Made by a program: the position numbers and the translations under genes
Source of the DNA: a bacterium
Lineage (GTDB): Bacteria > Zixibacteria > MSB-5A5 > GN15 > FEB-12
Direction of reading: 5' to 3'
Length of the DNA stretch: 64,000 nucleotides
Assembly (NCBI GenBank): GCA_020444475.1
Contig: JAHLKV010000003.1
Location: 553,384-617,383 of the forward strand
The notes under the pieces: model-generated
The model's input: the letters and a program-made list of their open reading frames with translations, nothing else
Told to the model about the DNA's origin: nothing
Databases searched by the model: none
Shown: positions 55,889-63,880 of the stretch, piece by piece
Numbering within the stretch: position 1 is the stretch's first letter
Layout of the letters: every line of letters begins with the position of its first letter

Positions 55889-58800
55889 TTACGCGGCGGC
55901 GTTGCGCGTGCGGCGGGTATCTATCCAGTTGTGGATACTCGTATAGGCGACCGGGATAAGAACGAGCGTGATGACGGTAGAAACGGACAAGCCGCCGATT
56001 ACGGCGCGCGCCAGGGCGGCCTGTATCTCTCCGCCCGCGCCGGTGCCGAAAGACAGTGGCAACATGCCCAGAACCGTAGTGCAGGTGGTCATCAGGATGG
56101 GGCGCAGGCGAAGCTTGCCGGCCCTGACGACCGCGTCGTGCACCGATAGGTCGTGCTCGCGCCGCATGAGATTGATATAGTCCACGAGTACGATCGCGTT
56201 ATTCACGACAATTCCCACCAGCATGATCATGCCCATCAGACTTTGCATATTCAGCGATGTTCCGGTGATAAGGAGTGTCGGCACGACTCCGATAACGGCG
56301 AGCGGTACGGCCAGCATGACGATGACCGGATCGAGAAAGCGCTCGAACTGCGCCGCCATGACCATATAGATGAGCACCACGGCCATGAATATGGAGAGCA
56401 GGAAGTCCTTGGCGGCTTTCTGCTGTTCTTCATACTCGCCGCCGAACACGAGCGAAAAGCCCTCGGGCATAGGGAAGCCTCGCAATTCACCCTGAAGTTC
56501 AGCGACAACGTCGCCCAGCGCTGCGCCACCTTCGAGGTTGGCCGTGATATAGGTCACACGCTGACCGTCAACACGCTCGATTTCGGTGGGCGAGCGGCGA
56601 CGTTCCGTGCTCACGACCGATGAGACCGGGATGATATCGCCGGATGCGGTCTGCACGGAGATGTTGCTCAGATCATTGGTCGAGAGTCGATCCTGCGGCT
56701 GCAGGCGAACGGTGATAGGGAACTCCTCTCCCCCCTCGCGAAACACCCCGGCCCGACTGCCGCCGACATTGGTCTGAATAACTTCGCCGATTTCGCTCAC
56801 CGTGAGACCGACGGCGGCGATTTTCTCTCTGTCGATGACGATATTCTGTTCCGGGCGTCCCTCGCGCCGACTGACGCGCACGTCGGCCACCGATGGATGC
56901 CGGTTGATTACCTCTTCAAGATGGACGGCGATCTCATCGGCCATAGCCAGATCATAGCCGCGAAGTTCGATTTGTACCGCCTCGCCGCTGCTCGAACCGA
57001 AGAGACGACGCAGCATCCACAAACCGGACTGGGCGCTGACCCGAATGTCGCTGCCCGGTACCCGCCCCGCGACGGCGCGGCGAATACGGTCGGCTAGTTC
57101 GATACTGCTCACGGTCCGCTCACTTGCGCTTTTCAACGAGATCTCCACCTCGGCGTCACCGGGCCGAATCTCCGTCGTCACGTGCCGTACCTGGTCCATC
57201 GGAAGGACATCAAGAACAATGTCTTCGAGTTCCTGCAGATATTCGTTGACGACGGCGATGTTCATTCCCTGCGCCATTTCAAGCTCAACATCAATCTCAT
57301 CGGCGTCGGTTTGCGGGGCCAGTTCGACCGGAAGCAGCGGCCAGAGTAGCACGGTAGTAACCAACAAGGCTGCTGCCGTACCGAAGACGATGGCGCGGTG
57401 ACGCATGGCCTTTTCGAGTCCACGGGCATAGCGGTCCTCGAGGTGGTCGAACCACTCGCCGAAACGAATCAGCCAGGTCCGCTTGCGATCAGCGCCGTTG
57501 TCGACGCGCAGGAAGCGGCTGCCCAGCATCGGAACCAGCGTCAGCGCCACGAACAGCGAGCAGGCCAGGGAGAAGACCACGACCAGAGCCAGTTCCCGAA
57601 ACAACATGCCGGAAACGGTCTGCATGAATACGACCGGGATGAAGATCACGGAGGTGGTGAGCGTGGAGGCGACAATAGCGCCGGTGACCTGCCTGGTTCC
57701 GGTGAGCGCACTCTCCTGGGCCGGGTGTCGACCTTCACGCAAACGCACGATGTTTTCCAGTACCACAATGGCATTGTCGACAATGAGCCCGATACCGAGC
57801 GCCAGCCCGCCGAAGCTCATTTGATTGAGCGTCAGATTGGCGAAGAACAGCACGCCGAAAGTGGCGATGATCGAGATCGGTATCGAGAGCGCAATGATGA
57901 ATGTCGATGAGCCGTTTCGAAGGAAGATGTACAGGATAAGTATGGCAAGCAGGCCGCCCCACAGCGCGGATCGCTGCACGTTGGTAATCGAATCCTGAAT
58001 GAACTCGCTCTGGTCGATGACGACCAAAAGATCGAGATCGTCGCGCTCACGGTCGATCTGCTCCATAACGGCGCGGACGCGCTCGGCAACGGCCACCGTG
58101 TTGGCGCCGGATTGCTTGCGAACGCCGAGACGGACCATCGGCTGTCCGTCGACCATGACGATGCGGTTGACATCTTCGAAACCATCGACAACCTCAGCGA
58201 CATCACCGACCCTGATCGGTTTGCCGTCGACCACGGTGATGATCGTCTCCGATATCTGACGGACCGATTGGAACTCGCCGCGGGTGCGAACATAGAGGTC
58301 GCTGACCCCTTCGCGCATGTCGCCGCCCGGAAGGGTGACGTTTTCGCGAGCGAGCGCCTGCCGGACATCGGTGGCCGAGAGGCGACTCGATGCCAGCCGG
58401 TCACGCAGCAGGCGAACCTGAATCTCCCGGTAGATGCCGCCCCACACATCGACCGATCCCACCCCGGGAATTTGCTCGAATCGCTGGGAGATTTCGCGCT
58501 CGAGGATGCGGGTAAGCTGGTCCATGCTGCGGTCGGATCGGGCGCCGAGTATGACGACCGGAAAGTTGTCGGGGTCGAATTTCCACAGGCGTGGTGACTC
58601 GACCTCGGGCGGGAAGTCATCGCGTATGCGATCGAGCGCGGCGCGCACGTCGTTGGCGGCAGCATCGATATTCGTTCCCTGCGCGAACTCAAGGGTTACC
58701 CGACTTCGCCCTTCTTCCGACTGGGATCGCACCCGTTCGATATTGGGTACACTGGCGATGGCGTTTTCGACCCGATCGGTGATGATCGACTCGATCTCTT

Positions 58801-58969
58801 CCGGCCCCACGTTGGGATACGATGTCGAGACGCTGAGTTGCGGGAAGTCAATCGGCGGGAGCAAGTCGACAGCGAGAAACCGAAATCCCATGATACCGAG
58901 CACGACGATGATAAGAAAGACCATCGTCGTGGCGATCGGGCGTTTGACGGCGATTCCGGTGATACTCAT
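55889..58969 (-). CDS. RND-family efflux transporter (AcrB/MdtB-like inner-membrane pump)
   Basis: MSITGIAVKRPIATTMVFLIIVVLGIMGF, ALWGGLLAILILYIFLRN, GGLALGIGLIVDNAIVVLENI, 1026 aa. Confidence 0.94.
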   Translation of the reverse strand: MSITGIAVKRPIATTMVFLIIVVLGIMGFRFLAVDLLPPIDFPQLSVSTSYPNVGPEEIESIITDRVENAIASVPNIERVRSQSEEGRSRVTLEFAQGTNIDAAANDVRAALDRIRDDFPPEVESPRLWKFDPDNFPVVILGARSDRSMDQLTRILEREISQRFEQIPGVGSVDVWGGIYREIQVRLLRDRLASSRLSATDVRQALARENVTLPGGDMREGVSDLYVRTRGEFQSVRQISETIITVVDGKPIRVGDVAEVVDGFEDVNRIVMVDGQPMVRLGVRKQSGANTVAVAERVRAVMEQIDRERDDLDLLVVIDQSEFIQDSITNVQRSALWGGLLAILILYIFLRNGSSTFIIALSIPISIIATFGVLFFANLTLNQMSFGGLALGIGLIVDNAIVVLENIVRLREGRHPAQESALTGTRQVTGAIVASTLTTSVIFIPVVFMQTVSGMLFRELALVVVFSLACSLFVALTLVPMLGSRFLRVDNGADRKRTWLIRFGEWFDHLEDRYARGLEKAMRHRAIVFGTAAALLVTTVLLWPLLPVELAPQTDADEIDVELEMAQGMNIAVVNEYLQELEDIVLDVLPMDQVRHVTTEIRPGDAEVEISLKSASERTVSSIELADRIRRAVAGRVPGSDIRVSAQSGLWMLRRLFGSSSGEAVQIELRGYDLAMADEIAVHLEEVINRHPSVADVRVSRREGRPEQNIVIDREKIAAVGLTVSEIGEVIQTNVGGSRAGVFREGGEEFPITVRLQPQDRLSTNDLSNISVQTASGDIIPVSSVVSTERRRSPTEIERVDGQRVTYITANLEGGAALGDVVAELQGELRGFPMPEGFSLVFGGEYEEQQKAAKDFLLSIFMAVVLIYMVMAAQFERFLDPVIVMLAVPLAVIGVVPTLLITGTSLNMQSLMGMIMLVGIVVNNAIVLVDYINLMRREHDLSVHDAVVRAGKLRLRPILMTTCTTVLGMLPLSFGTGAGGEIQAALARAVIGGLSVSTVITLVLIPVAYTSIHNWIDTRRTRNAAA

Positions 58970-58998
58970 TGGTGACTCAGGATCTTGCGCTGTTGTCT

Positions 58999-60306
58999 TT
59001 ACGGTTGAAATCTGATGGCGGCGCTGTCCGTGCGTTCCGCCTGCGGTGCTTTCAGGATGGATTCTATCAGATCATCACGTTGCAGCCTCTGCAGGCGCTC
59101 GACCCACTGCCAGTTAACCGGTCGCACCCGCGCGGTCGAGGACTCTCCGGCCAGCAGGTCCTGGCCCAGGGTGACAATCCACCGGTCGGGTTCAACGCCG
59201 GCTACGCCGGCGGTCATGCGCCCGCGCGCGATCACCTGTACGGGAACAAACGTGAACGAGACCGGATCGGTAAGATTGAGATCGCCGTTCGATCCGCCGA
59301 CAGCGGCGAGCTCACCGGAAAGCGAGTCGGTCACGAACACACCGGTGGCGCCGGTGCGAGGGCTTTCATAGAGGGCGCTCAGCGGCACGAGTGTGGCTTG
59401 CTCACTTTCGCCGTAGAAGATATCGACTGCCACGAACTGCCCCGGCTTCAAGACGCGATCGGCGTTGGAGATATCGACCTCGGCCTCGGTGCTGTGGGTG
59501 ACCGGATGCAGGAAGGGGGAAATGCGCGACAAGCGAGCATCGATTGAAACCGGCTGGTCTCCGCCGACCATGATTTCAGCCCGCTGACCGGTTTCGATGT
59601 ACGACAACATGCGGTCGGTCAGGATTACGGTTGCTCTGACGGTGTCCATCTGCCCCAGGGTGAACAGACGCTGTCCGGGGCTGACATACATGCCGATCTC
59701 AGCATTGCGAGTGCCTACCGTTCCGTCGATCGGGGAACGTATAATCGTCCGGGCGAGCGATTCACGGCGCTCATCGACGGTCGCCTCTGACTGTTCAACT
59801 CTCGCCTGCGCCAGCTCGAAATCGGCTTCGGCAGAAGTGGCATCGGCGCGAGCGGTCTCAATCTCACTGGGTGTGATCAGGTTTTTTTCCGCCAGAGCTT
59901 CGGACCTGACCAGCTCGGACTGGATCTCACTGAGGCGTGCTTCAGCCTGTTTGGCCTGGGCCCGGGCGATTCGCAAACCCGCTTCGGCCTGCTTCAGTCG
60001 CTCGCGGAACTCATTGTCGCGAAGTCGGATGAGCGGATCCCCACGGTTGACCAGAGCGCCGTTGTCGACCAGCACTTCGGTCACCACGGCCGATATCTCG
60101 GGGTAGATTTCCACCTGATTCCGCGCTTTAATCACGCCGCTGAGTCGCTCGGTCAGAGGCAGTGAGCCGTAGGAAGCCTGAACAGCCTCCACAGCGGGGA
60201 TCATGCGATCGCGCCCGCCACCGGATTCGGCGCTGTCCGAACAACCGGTAAAGAAGACGGTGATTGGTATCGAGAGAATGAGGCAGAGAGTTAGCTTTAC
60301 GTCCAC
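58999..60306 (-). CDS. RND efflux periplasmic adaptor (MFP)
   Basis: RLSGVIKARNQVEIYPEISAVVTEVLVDNGALVNRGDPLIRL, TIIRSPIDGTVGTRNAEIGMYVSPGQRLFTL. Confidence 0.92.
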   Translation of the reverse strand: MDVKLTLCLILSIPITVFFTGCSDSAESGGGRDRMIPAVEAVQASYGSLPLTERLSGVIKARNQVEIYPEISAVVTEVLVDNGALVNRGDPLIRLRDNEFRERLKQAEAGLRIARAQAKQAEARLSEIQSELVRSEALAEKNLITPSEIETARADATSAEADFELAQARVEQSEATVDERRESLARTIIRSPIDGTVGTRNAEIGMYVSPGQRLFTLGQMDTVRATVILTDRMLSYIETGQRAEIMVGGDQPVSIDARLSRISPFLHPVTHSTEAEVDISNADRVLKPGQFVAVDIFYGESEQATLVPLSALYESPRTGATGVFVTDSLSGELAAVGGSNGDLNLTDPVSFTFVPVQVIARGRMTAGVAGVEPDRWIVTLGQDLLAGESSTARVRPVNWQWVERLQRLQRDDLIESILKAPQAERTDSAAIRFQP

Positions 60307-60681: not shown

Positions 60682-60861
60682 TTATGGCCTCGGGGGACAC
60701 GGTCTGCACTCTTCCCAGCAGATGATCGGCGGCGTGGTCGTGCATACCATCACCCAGCAGCATCGTGCGGCTTCGACCTTGGTCGGGGCGGTGATCGTAA
60801 AGGCACCCAGGAAGACCATGATGAGTGCCAGGGTCAGAATAATCGCTTTGAACAGCTTCAT
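60682..60861 (-). CDS. Secreted six-cysteine small peptide (59 aa precursor), not in the supplied ORF track
   Basis: MKLFKAIILTLALIMVFLGAFTITAPTKVEAARCCWVMVCTTTPPIICWEECRPCPPRP; clear signal peptide; strong SD AAAGGAGGTGAAC upstream. Confidence 0.8.
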   Translation of the reverse strand: MKLFKAIILTLALIMVFLGAFTITAPTKVEAARCCWVMVCTTTPPIICWEECRPCPPRP

Positions 60862-60909
60862 CCTTGTTCACCTCCTTTCGAGCGTCCGTTCTTTCCCCCA
60901 GAGGTTGTG

Positions 60910-61500
60910 TTATGGTGAGGCGGCCGTCGGTGTGGCAGAAAGTGAACCGACAGCGTCGTAGACTTCGGATATCATATCCTCTTCGAGCATTCCGGGCCAG
61001 ACCCGGATGACGGTCCCGTCGGAAGACAAGAGTACGGTCTGCGGAAGGACATGACCCCGGTAAGCATCGATAAGGCGATTGTCGGTGACCGACAGGATCG
61101 GGAACGACATGGCGTGCGCTTCGGCGAAGGTTTGAGCCTCGTCGATCATCCCCGCACACATGCCGACGAAGCGAAGCTGCTCCGAGGCGTACTGGTCGTA
61201 CAGATCGTTCCAGAAGGCGAGGTTGCCTTCGCAGGCATCGCACGACGGTGAGAACCAGAGCAGGACAGTCGTCGGAGAGTCGGGACCGTAGCGGATACTC
61301 AGCGGTTTGCCGTAAATATCTTCGCCTGAGATGGTCGGAAGGCGCTGGTCGGCGGCGAGCGGTTGGAACATATCGGTCAAGCCGTCGAGTTGGGCCCGGA
61401 GATTACGGTTTTCGTTTATCAGGAGCGCGATTTCGACCGCCATCGCCGCCATAACGAGCAGAAAGGCGATGGTCCACCACGACGTGCGTGAGGTTGCCAT
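60910..61500 (-). CDS. Membrane-anchored TlpA/MauD-like thioredoxin-fold protein
   Basis: N-terminal TM; TVLLWFSPSCDACEGNLAFWNDLYDQY (CxxC), HVLPQTVLLSSDGTVIRVWPGML; ATG at 61500. Confidence 0.85.
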   Translation of the reverse strand: MATSRTSWWTIAFLLVMAAMAVEIALLINENRNLRAQLDGLTDMFQPLAADQRLPTISGEDIYGKPLSIRYGPDSPTTVLLWFSPSCDACEGNLAFWNDLYDQYASEQLRFVGMCAGMIDEAQTFAEAHAMSFPILSVTDNRLIDAYRGHVLPQTVLLSSDGTVIRVWPGMLEEDMISEVYDAVGSLSATPTAASP

Positions 61501-62027: not shown

Positions 62028-62051
62028 TGTCCGAACCGCAGGGGTTCGGAC
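62028..62051 (+). repeat. Palindromic dispersed repeat, copy A
   Basis: TGTCCGAACC-GCAGG-GGTTCGGAC; 9-bp perfect arms; inverted copy at 63857-63880. Confidence 0.7.
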
Positions 62052-62130
62052 CTACAAGACCTCTCCCTTTACTCGACTGGCTGCGTGGTGCACGGGGAGG
62101 TACACCACGCACAGCGGCTAGTTGGTGTGC

Positions 62131-63081
62131 TTACTTCGTCGGGATGCGGGTCTTGTTGGCGGCGAGCCAGGTGTCGAAGCTCTGGAGTTTCGGATTCAGC
62201 TCACGGCTCTTTTCGATATCGCGCGGGGCGCGGAAATCCTTCTCGAAGTCGCGTTTGAACTGAAACATATTGCCGAGATCGTCGGCGCCCGGGAAACCAA
62301 AGCTCCGGTAGACATCGGGTTCCACTTCGTTGTAGCGGACGCTCTGTCCCAGGGCACGCCCGAGAGCATCGGCCATCTCCGATCCGGACAGGTGGTCACC
62401 GGCGATACCGACGGTTTTACCGACGTAGGTCTGCCCACTTTTGAAGATGCCGTAGGCGCAGCGGCCGATATCTTCGGCAGCGATTCCCGGCAGCTTGCTC
62501 TTCCCCATCGGGAGCGTGAAGGCCATGTTACCGGACTCGTCTTCCTTGGGTCCCATGCCGAAGGTGATCAGGTTGTCCCAGTAGAAGGAAGTCAGGAGCA
62601 GGGTGGTCGGAACGCCGGATTCGGTGAAGAAGCGGTTGGCCTCGCCCTTGGCATCGAGATGCGGCACTTTGTACTTCTCCATCAGGGTCGGCATGCGGTT
62701 GTCGTCGAGCGGCACCCACTTTCGGGTGTCTTCGAGCGTCGACCAGATGACGTGTCTGACTCGGGCGGCTTTGGCGGCATCGGCGAGCGATTTGGCGTGG
62801 GTCAGTTCTCTCTCGGGGGACATATGTTCCCAATAGAAGGTGACGCAGAAAGCGCCATAGGCGCCTTCGAAGGCTTTTTCGAGACTGGCGGGGTTGTCGA
62901 TATCGGCCGCGACCACTTCGGCGCCAAGGGCGGCGAGTTCTTTGGCCATGTCAGAGTTAACGTTGCGGGTGATGGCGCGGGGTGTGAACTCGCTGTTGTG
63001 GTCGGCGAGGATGGCGCGGACCAGTCCGCCGCCCTGCGCACCGGTGGCCCCCATAACGGCAATGATCTTCTTGTTTGCCAC
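62131..63081 (-). CDS. NmrA-like NAD(P)-binding protein
   Basis: KKIIAVMGATGAQGGGLVRAILADHNSEFTPRAITRNVNSDMAKELAALGAEVVAADIDNPASLEKAFEGAYGAFCVTFYWE. Confidence 0.92.
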   Translation of the reverse strand: MANKKIIAVMGATGAQGGGLVRAILADHNSEFTPRAITRNVNSDMAKELAALGAEVVAADIDNPASLEKAFEGAYGAFCVTFYWEHMSPERELTHAKSLADAAKAARVRHVIWSTLEDTRKWVPLDDNRMPTLMEKYKVPHLDAKGEANRFFTESGVPTTLLLTSFYWDNLITFGMGPKEDESGNMAFTLPMGKSKLPGIAAEDIGRCAYGIFKSGQTYVGKTVGIAGDHLSGSEMADALGRALGQSVRYNEVEPDVYRSFGFPGADDLGNMFQFKRDFEKDFRAPRDIEKSRELNPKLQSFDTWLAANKTRIPTK

Positions 63082-63186
63082 GGAAAACTCCAGTCGTGCT
63101 ATGTGTTTTGGACTATGGTCGTGTTCGTGCGCGGCCCGATAAGCCGGTGACAGAAAAACAAGATTACATGGAGTTTGGTTCCGGCC

Positions 63187-63856: not shown

Positions 63857-63880
63857 GTCCGAACCCCTGCGGTTCGGACA
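63857..63880 (-). repeat. Palindromic dispersed repeat, copy B (inverted relative to copy A)
   Basis: GTCCGAACC-CCTGC-GGTTCGGACA, exact reverse complement of copy A. Confidence 0.7.

Follow-up and report, generated by a model that had tools for sequence, protein, structure and literature searches.

A predicted exported six-cysteine peptide encoded beside a TlpA-like thioredoxin-fold protein in Zixibacteria

Toward the end of a 64,000-nucleotide stretch of a Zixibacteria genome (GenBank assembly GCA_020444475.1, contig JAHLKV010000003.1, positions 553,384 to 617,383; hereafter the window), two genes follow each other on the minus strand. The first encodes a TlpA-like thioredoxin-fold protein, and the second a small, putatively secreted peptide with six cysteines. 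The features of this locus, all on the minus strand, are the following.

60910..61500, minus strand: TlpA/ResA-like thioredoxin-fold protein, 196 amino acids, ATG at 61500 (basis: PF00578, AlphaFold2 model, ResA fold match)
61420..61479, minus strand: hydrophobic N-terminal membrane anchor, about residues 8-27 (AlphaFold2 helix 4-44), present in aligned family members
61231..61242, minus strand: CxxC active site CDAC (Cys87, Cys90), both alignment columns nearly invariant
61042..61044, minus strand: cis-Pro position (Pro153) of the thioredoxin fold, invariant in the alignment of the TlpAs of the window family
60869..60878, minus strand: Shine-Dalgarno element AAAGGAGGTG of the peptide gene, strong and well positioned
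60682..60861, minus strand: gene for the predicted secreted six-cysteine peptide, ATG start, 59 amino acids, stop within the coordinates (basis: open reading frame, homologues, substitution ratios)
60769..60861, minus strand: predicted Sec signal peptide, residues 1-31, cleavage between VEA and A
60685..60768, minus strand: predicted mature peptide ARCCWVMVCTTTPPIICWEECRPCPPRP, with a conserved Cys/Trp/Pro pattern
60700..60762, minus strand: predicted beta-hairpin (AlphaFold2), strands at residues 34-40 and 48-54

The peptide gene is translated as MKLFKAIILTLALIMVFLGAFTITAPTKVEAARCCWVMVCTTTPPIICWEECRPCPPRP, with cysteines at residues 34, 35, 40, 48, 52, and 55 that form the pattern CC-x4-C-x7-C-x3-C-x2-C; its ATG lies 48 bp from the stop codon of the TlpA-like gene. 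An earlier note on this DNA, made from the letters alone, had proposed an overlooked open reading frame (ORF) here, and on re-reading the sequence we found its position, the spacing, and the cysteine pattern to be exact. The near-perfect Shine-Dalgarno element that it described is also well placed, and AAGGAGGTGA stands 5' of most of the peptide homologues whose upstream sequence was inspected. The predicted signal, assigned by a sequence rule rather than by a trained predictor, has a lysine near the N-terminus, a hydrophobic core, and an AxA-like site, with Ala31 invariant in the alignment and no lipobox. In the AlphaFold2 model of the peptide (28-row alignment) a signal helix is followed by a beta-hairpin, and the mean predicted local distance difference test score (pLDDT) is 94 over the block of residues 41-50.

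The ORF is short, and searches of Pfam, NCBIfam, PHROGs, and PADLOC gave it no family match above cut-off, as might be expected of a chance ORF with a signal-like start beside an ordinary TlpA gene. The only Pfam hit was a weak one to DUF6520 (PF20130; 15.7 bits, E-value 0.019), below the gathering score of 25.4, and NVEALA (PF14055) gave no hit in the Pfam search. Both families are small exported peptides of Bacteroidota that are sometimes encoded near redox genes, and they offer a possible lead. Relatives of the peptide were found neither in the PDB, by sequence or by fold, nor in plasmid records. Against a chance origin, homologues with E-values below 1e-20, with conserved cysteines, are present in 22 of 133 Zixibacteria genomes (nearly all of them metagenome-assembled, with some partner genes hidden by contig ends); the earlier note had made its proposal depend on such homologues. 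The aligned peptides retain CxW or CCxW, PP, CW[ED]xC, and PxP, and the Cys, Trp, and Pro columns are invariant or nearly so. The ratio of nonsynonymous to synonymous substitution rates (dN/dS) is 0.04-0.19 for five species pairs, including 0.08 for the window peptide and its closest relative, which share 82% identity in a gapped alignment, while their TlpAs share 61%. Because of the distribution of homologues, the conserved residues, and the mostly synonymous substitutions, the ORF is more than chance, and on this sequence evidence it is a true gene. With a conserved partner in addition, conservation rules out the chance explanation, to which we assign a vanishingly small probability. Weak matches elsewhere in the same genome were dismissed as noise, having neither a signal nor the cysteine pattern.

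Two or three tandem copies of the peptide gene are found in four genomes (G075, G112, G101, and G125). For two paralogue pairs in G112 and G101, dN/dS rises to 0.3-0.5, with more change in the mature part than in the signal. Among 13 named contigs that carry relatives, 11 are labelled Candidatus Zixiibacteriota, one Ignavibacterium sp., and one Latescibacterota. The Ignavibacterium-labelled relative appears to belong to a genome (G060) that was placed by genome search in the order of the window, and the Latescibacterota contig is possibly misbinned.

The partner protein (60910-61500) has the profile, CxxC motif, cis-Pro, and N-terminal anchor of the TlpA/ResA-like family. It matches PF00578 (AhpC-TSA) with 34.3 bits against a cut-off of 26, and its AlphaFold2 model combines a membrane helix with a ResA-like domain (pLDDT 91.3). 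The closest fold in the PDB is ResA, with a template modelling score normalized to the target, TM(target), of 0.81-0.85. Nevertheless, the protein falls below the curated cut-offs for ResA (NF002854; 45.5 vs 170 bits) and StoA (22.9 vs 210 bits). Thus, of the Bacillus thiol-disulfide oxidoreductases, ResA and StoA provide the closest solved folds and profiles and are likewise anchored with CxxC and cis-Pro, but the window protein scores far under their cut-offs and is paired with a peptide gene.

The two genes are a conserved module, as judged from comparison across the phylum. The TlpA clade to which the window protein belongs (E-value below 1e-60) is present in 19 genomes, all of which carry the peptide. 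Conversely, 19 of the 22 genomes with the peptide have this clade, or 21 once the f14-family sister TlpAs are included (Fisher test 3e-20 for the clade and 1e-23 with the sisters; the test ignores relatedness). At nearly every locus TlpA comes first, immediately 5' of the peptide gene and with the same orientation. Of the 19 linked pairs of the window family, 17 have a gap of -4 to 76 bp; in the remaining two the gap is 289-294 bp and accommodates a further small cysteine peptide. The genes overlap by 4 nt in seven of the 19 pairs, which suggests translational coupling, and a promoter and terminator scan of the locus found no terminator between the two genes in the window. More distant genes vary for the most part from family to family, and over about 20 loci no neighbour except TlpA is conserved. 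For G076, one of the genomes with the peptide, the searches yielded no partner TlpA; Cys40 is missing from its peptide, and together these losses resemble joint decay. A tblastn match to TlpA just upstream of this peptide (42% over 31 residues, containing a stop) is only suggestive of a TlpA remnant, because 19 of 500 shuffled sequences scored as high.

As a separate observation, G112 and G101 encode a third small cysteine peptide of 51 amino acids, ending in ...AKRCLLICKFDPVYECQVVCYK, after TlpA and before the six-cysteine peptides (L045:5739-5894 and L051:6636-6791).

The window pair is, by the same kind of comparison, one case of a wider pairing in Zixibacteria, where divergent TlpAs adjoin quite different exported cysteine-rich peptides. 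The genome of the window has a second, unrelated pair (L138:1321-1881 and L138:2137-2451; G000:C1, about 750379-751400), with its TlpA at G000:C1:750379-750942 and relatives in G002, G061, and G067. We surveyed 111 loci of the phylum, found with a TlpA profile (A4) built from 12 seeds, for signal-bearing ORFs of at most 130 amino acids with at least four cysteines within 600 bp of TlpA. This rule was matched downstream on the same strand in 64 of the 111 loci, downstream on the opposite strand in one, and upstream on the opposite strand in none; of nine matches upstream on the same strand, eight look real with the gene order reversed. With the upstream-order and rule-missed cases added, a peptide lies beside TlpA in 79 of 111 loci, or 62 of 94 without the 17-member window clade, figures that are not fully independent because nearly all seeds were chosen beside peptides. 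On the TlpA tree the pairing is clustered, and one well-supported clade, made up of 13 ResA-like proteins, lacks peptides entirely. The remaining redoxin loci of the window's genome were inspected as a control, and of these only the second pair showed a credible peptide next to its redoxin gene. A search of 14 genomes from other groups yielded 30 TlpA loci, none with a credible peptide; most of the hits, however, leave the anchored N-terminus unaligned.

The survey peptides fall into about 25 sequence clusters, a threshold-dependent number (31 under another overlap rule), and are far more diverse than their TlpA partners. Such diversity would be expected of secreted effector or signalling mini-proteins. 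It also fits a reading in which TlpA is a non-redox partner, either for binding and immunity or as a membrane tether, and the peptide is a secreted toxin or signal. The faster change of the mature part in the G112 and G101 pairs, as in secreted toxins, points the same way, and so does one genome (G009) whose TlpA has SSRG in place of CxxC, both active-site cysteines being lost, next to an intact peptide with all six. A mere tether, however, would not need the active site that the paired TlpAs conserve: the first cysteine is kept in 79 of 79, CxxC in 75 (CxxS in the other four), and cis-Pro in 79 of 79. We therefore hold a non-redox role to be rather improbable. The CxxS partners (L198, L208, L209, and L210) stand beside cysteine-rich peptides with 8-10 cysteines, and these monothiol proteins could, from their motif, act as isomerases or trap their substrates.

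An even number of cysteines is found in the predicted mature part of 81 of 87 peptides, and 24 of 25 clusters are mainly even (p=8e-7), a bias that implies disulfides. It disfavours the other role suggested in the earlier note, a small metal- or haem-binding peptide, for which we found no positive evidence. According to this alternative, TlpA would keep the cysteines of the exported peptide reduced for binding of copper, zinc, or haem, as with Bradyrhizobium TlpA and its substrates ScoI and CoxB (CuA site), a precedent with solved mixed-disulfide complexes (PMC6696091; 4txo). The redox setting would suit it: all 12 genomes tested encode a member of the CcdA/DsbD family, none encodes DsbB, and a single one encodes VKOR, so that the route apparent in them is the reducing one. 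On the other hand, the window peptide shows neither a conserved pattern of His or Met ligands nor the haem motif CxxCH, and apart from the pair itself the neighbourhood is not conserved. All in all, a metal-handling peptide seems unlikely to us.

We consider it probable, instead, that the locus encodes an exported disulfide-rich mini-protein together with its own anchored TlpA-type thiol-disulfide oxidoreductase, which would serve as a private folding enzyme. This is the first of the roles suggested in the earlier note, and it is favoured by the conserved module, the near-perfect co-occurrence, the even cysteine counts, and the retention of CxxC or CxxS with cis-Pro. In such a scheme, a single N-terminal helix would anchor the ResA/TlpA-type protein in the inner membrane, on its outer face. 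The small peptide would be exported via Sec, cleaved after VEA, and folded as a beta-hairpin whose six cysteines pair into three disulfides. On emerging from the translocon, the peptide may encounter the anchored TlpA, which would exchange disulfides with it directly through CxxC. Because every genome tested has CcdA/DsbD, none has DsbB, and only one has VKOR, TlpA would more likely be a reductase or isomerase than an oxidase: with CcdA/DsbD as its electron source, isomerisation or reductive proof-reading is a likelier direction than net oxidation.

Besides the choice of survey seeds, several observations weigh against a private folding enzyme. The absence of DsbB, and in most genomes of VKOR, leaves the source of the disulfides unexplained. 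The G009 pair, with its lost CxxC and intact peptide, indicates that redox chemistry is not required in every lineage. Some peptides of the window family have seven or nine cysteines. Finally, in two genomes (G094 and G116) the peptide has no adjacent TlpA and a sister of the TlpA clade is encoded elsewhere, the G094 peptide being located at a contig end.

Among known systems, the nearest proven relation is that of Bradyrhizobium TlpA, which reduces ScoI and CoxB (PMC6696091). It shares the membrane-anchored TlpA fold, the CxxC motif, and the action on exported cysteine proteins, but its substrates are copper-site proteins, whereas here the adjacent gene specifies a predicted mature peptide of 28 residues, six of them cysteines, and identity between the window TlpA and the solved TlpA-ScoI complex (4txo) is only 14%. 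By these differences, the locus does not appear to be a member of that system. For the peptide, the nearest analogy is the sublancin cluster, in which sunA, for a secreted disulfide peptide, is encoded with the thiol-disulfide oxidoreductases bdbA and bdbB (PMC4336743). In both cases a disulfide peptide, here a predicted one, is encoded alongside its own oxidoreductase. Unlike sublancin, with its peptidase ATP-binding cassette (ABC) exporter, glycosyltransferase, and immunity gene, the peptides here have a Sec signal and only TlpA as a conserved neighbour; none of these sublancin-type genes was adjacent over about 20 loci, and by this comparison the locus is not a member of that system either.

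The pairing points to an entire group of exported peptides that have gone unannotated in this uncultivated phylum, and the place to look for them is easily stated: right next to the genes for anchored TlpAs. If the proposed role is true, folding by one enzyme for one substrate would replace the general DsbA/DsbB route, and the pairs would provide matched enzymes and substrates for producing disulfide-rich peptides. As a tentative extension, which we regard as possible but short of an even chance, the phylum may employ, in its relations with other cells, fast-diversifying secreted disulfide-rich mini-proteins (at least two dozen clusters), each with its own anchored TlpA as folding enzyme in place of DsbA/DsbB, in the role of effectors, signals, or antagonists.

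The peptide gene is followed immediately by the genes of a resistance-nodulation-division (RND) efflux pump at 55889-60306 on the minus strand, with an AcrB-like protein (55889-58969) and an HlyD-like membrane-fusion protein (58999-60306). We rejected the pump as a part of the module because, of all the loci that were compared, only the one in this genome has it alongside. Elsewhere in the window, the 23-bp near-palindrome GTCCGAACCCCTGCGGTTCGGAC occurs twice (62029-62051 and 63857-63879). With up to two mismatches it is found 41 times in the genome, and its reversed control 0 times; from this distribution it is an interspersed repeat resembling repetitive extragenic palindromes (REP-like). 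A 342-amino-acid open frame at 62122-63150 on the plus strand lies opposite an NmrA-family gene (62131-63081, minus strand) and is most likely an antisense shadow of this GC-rich gene.
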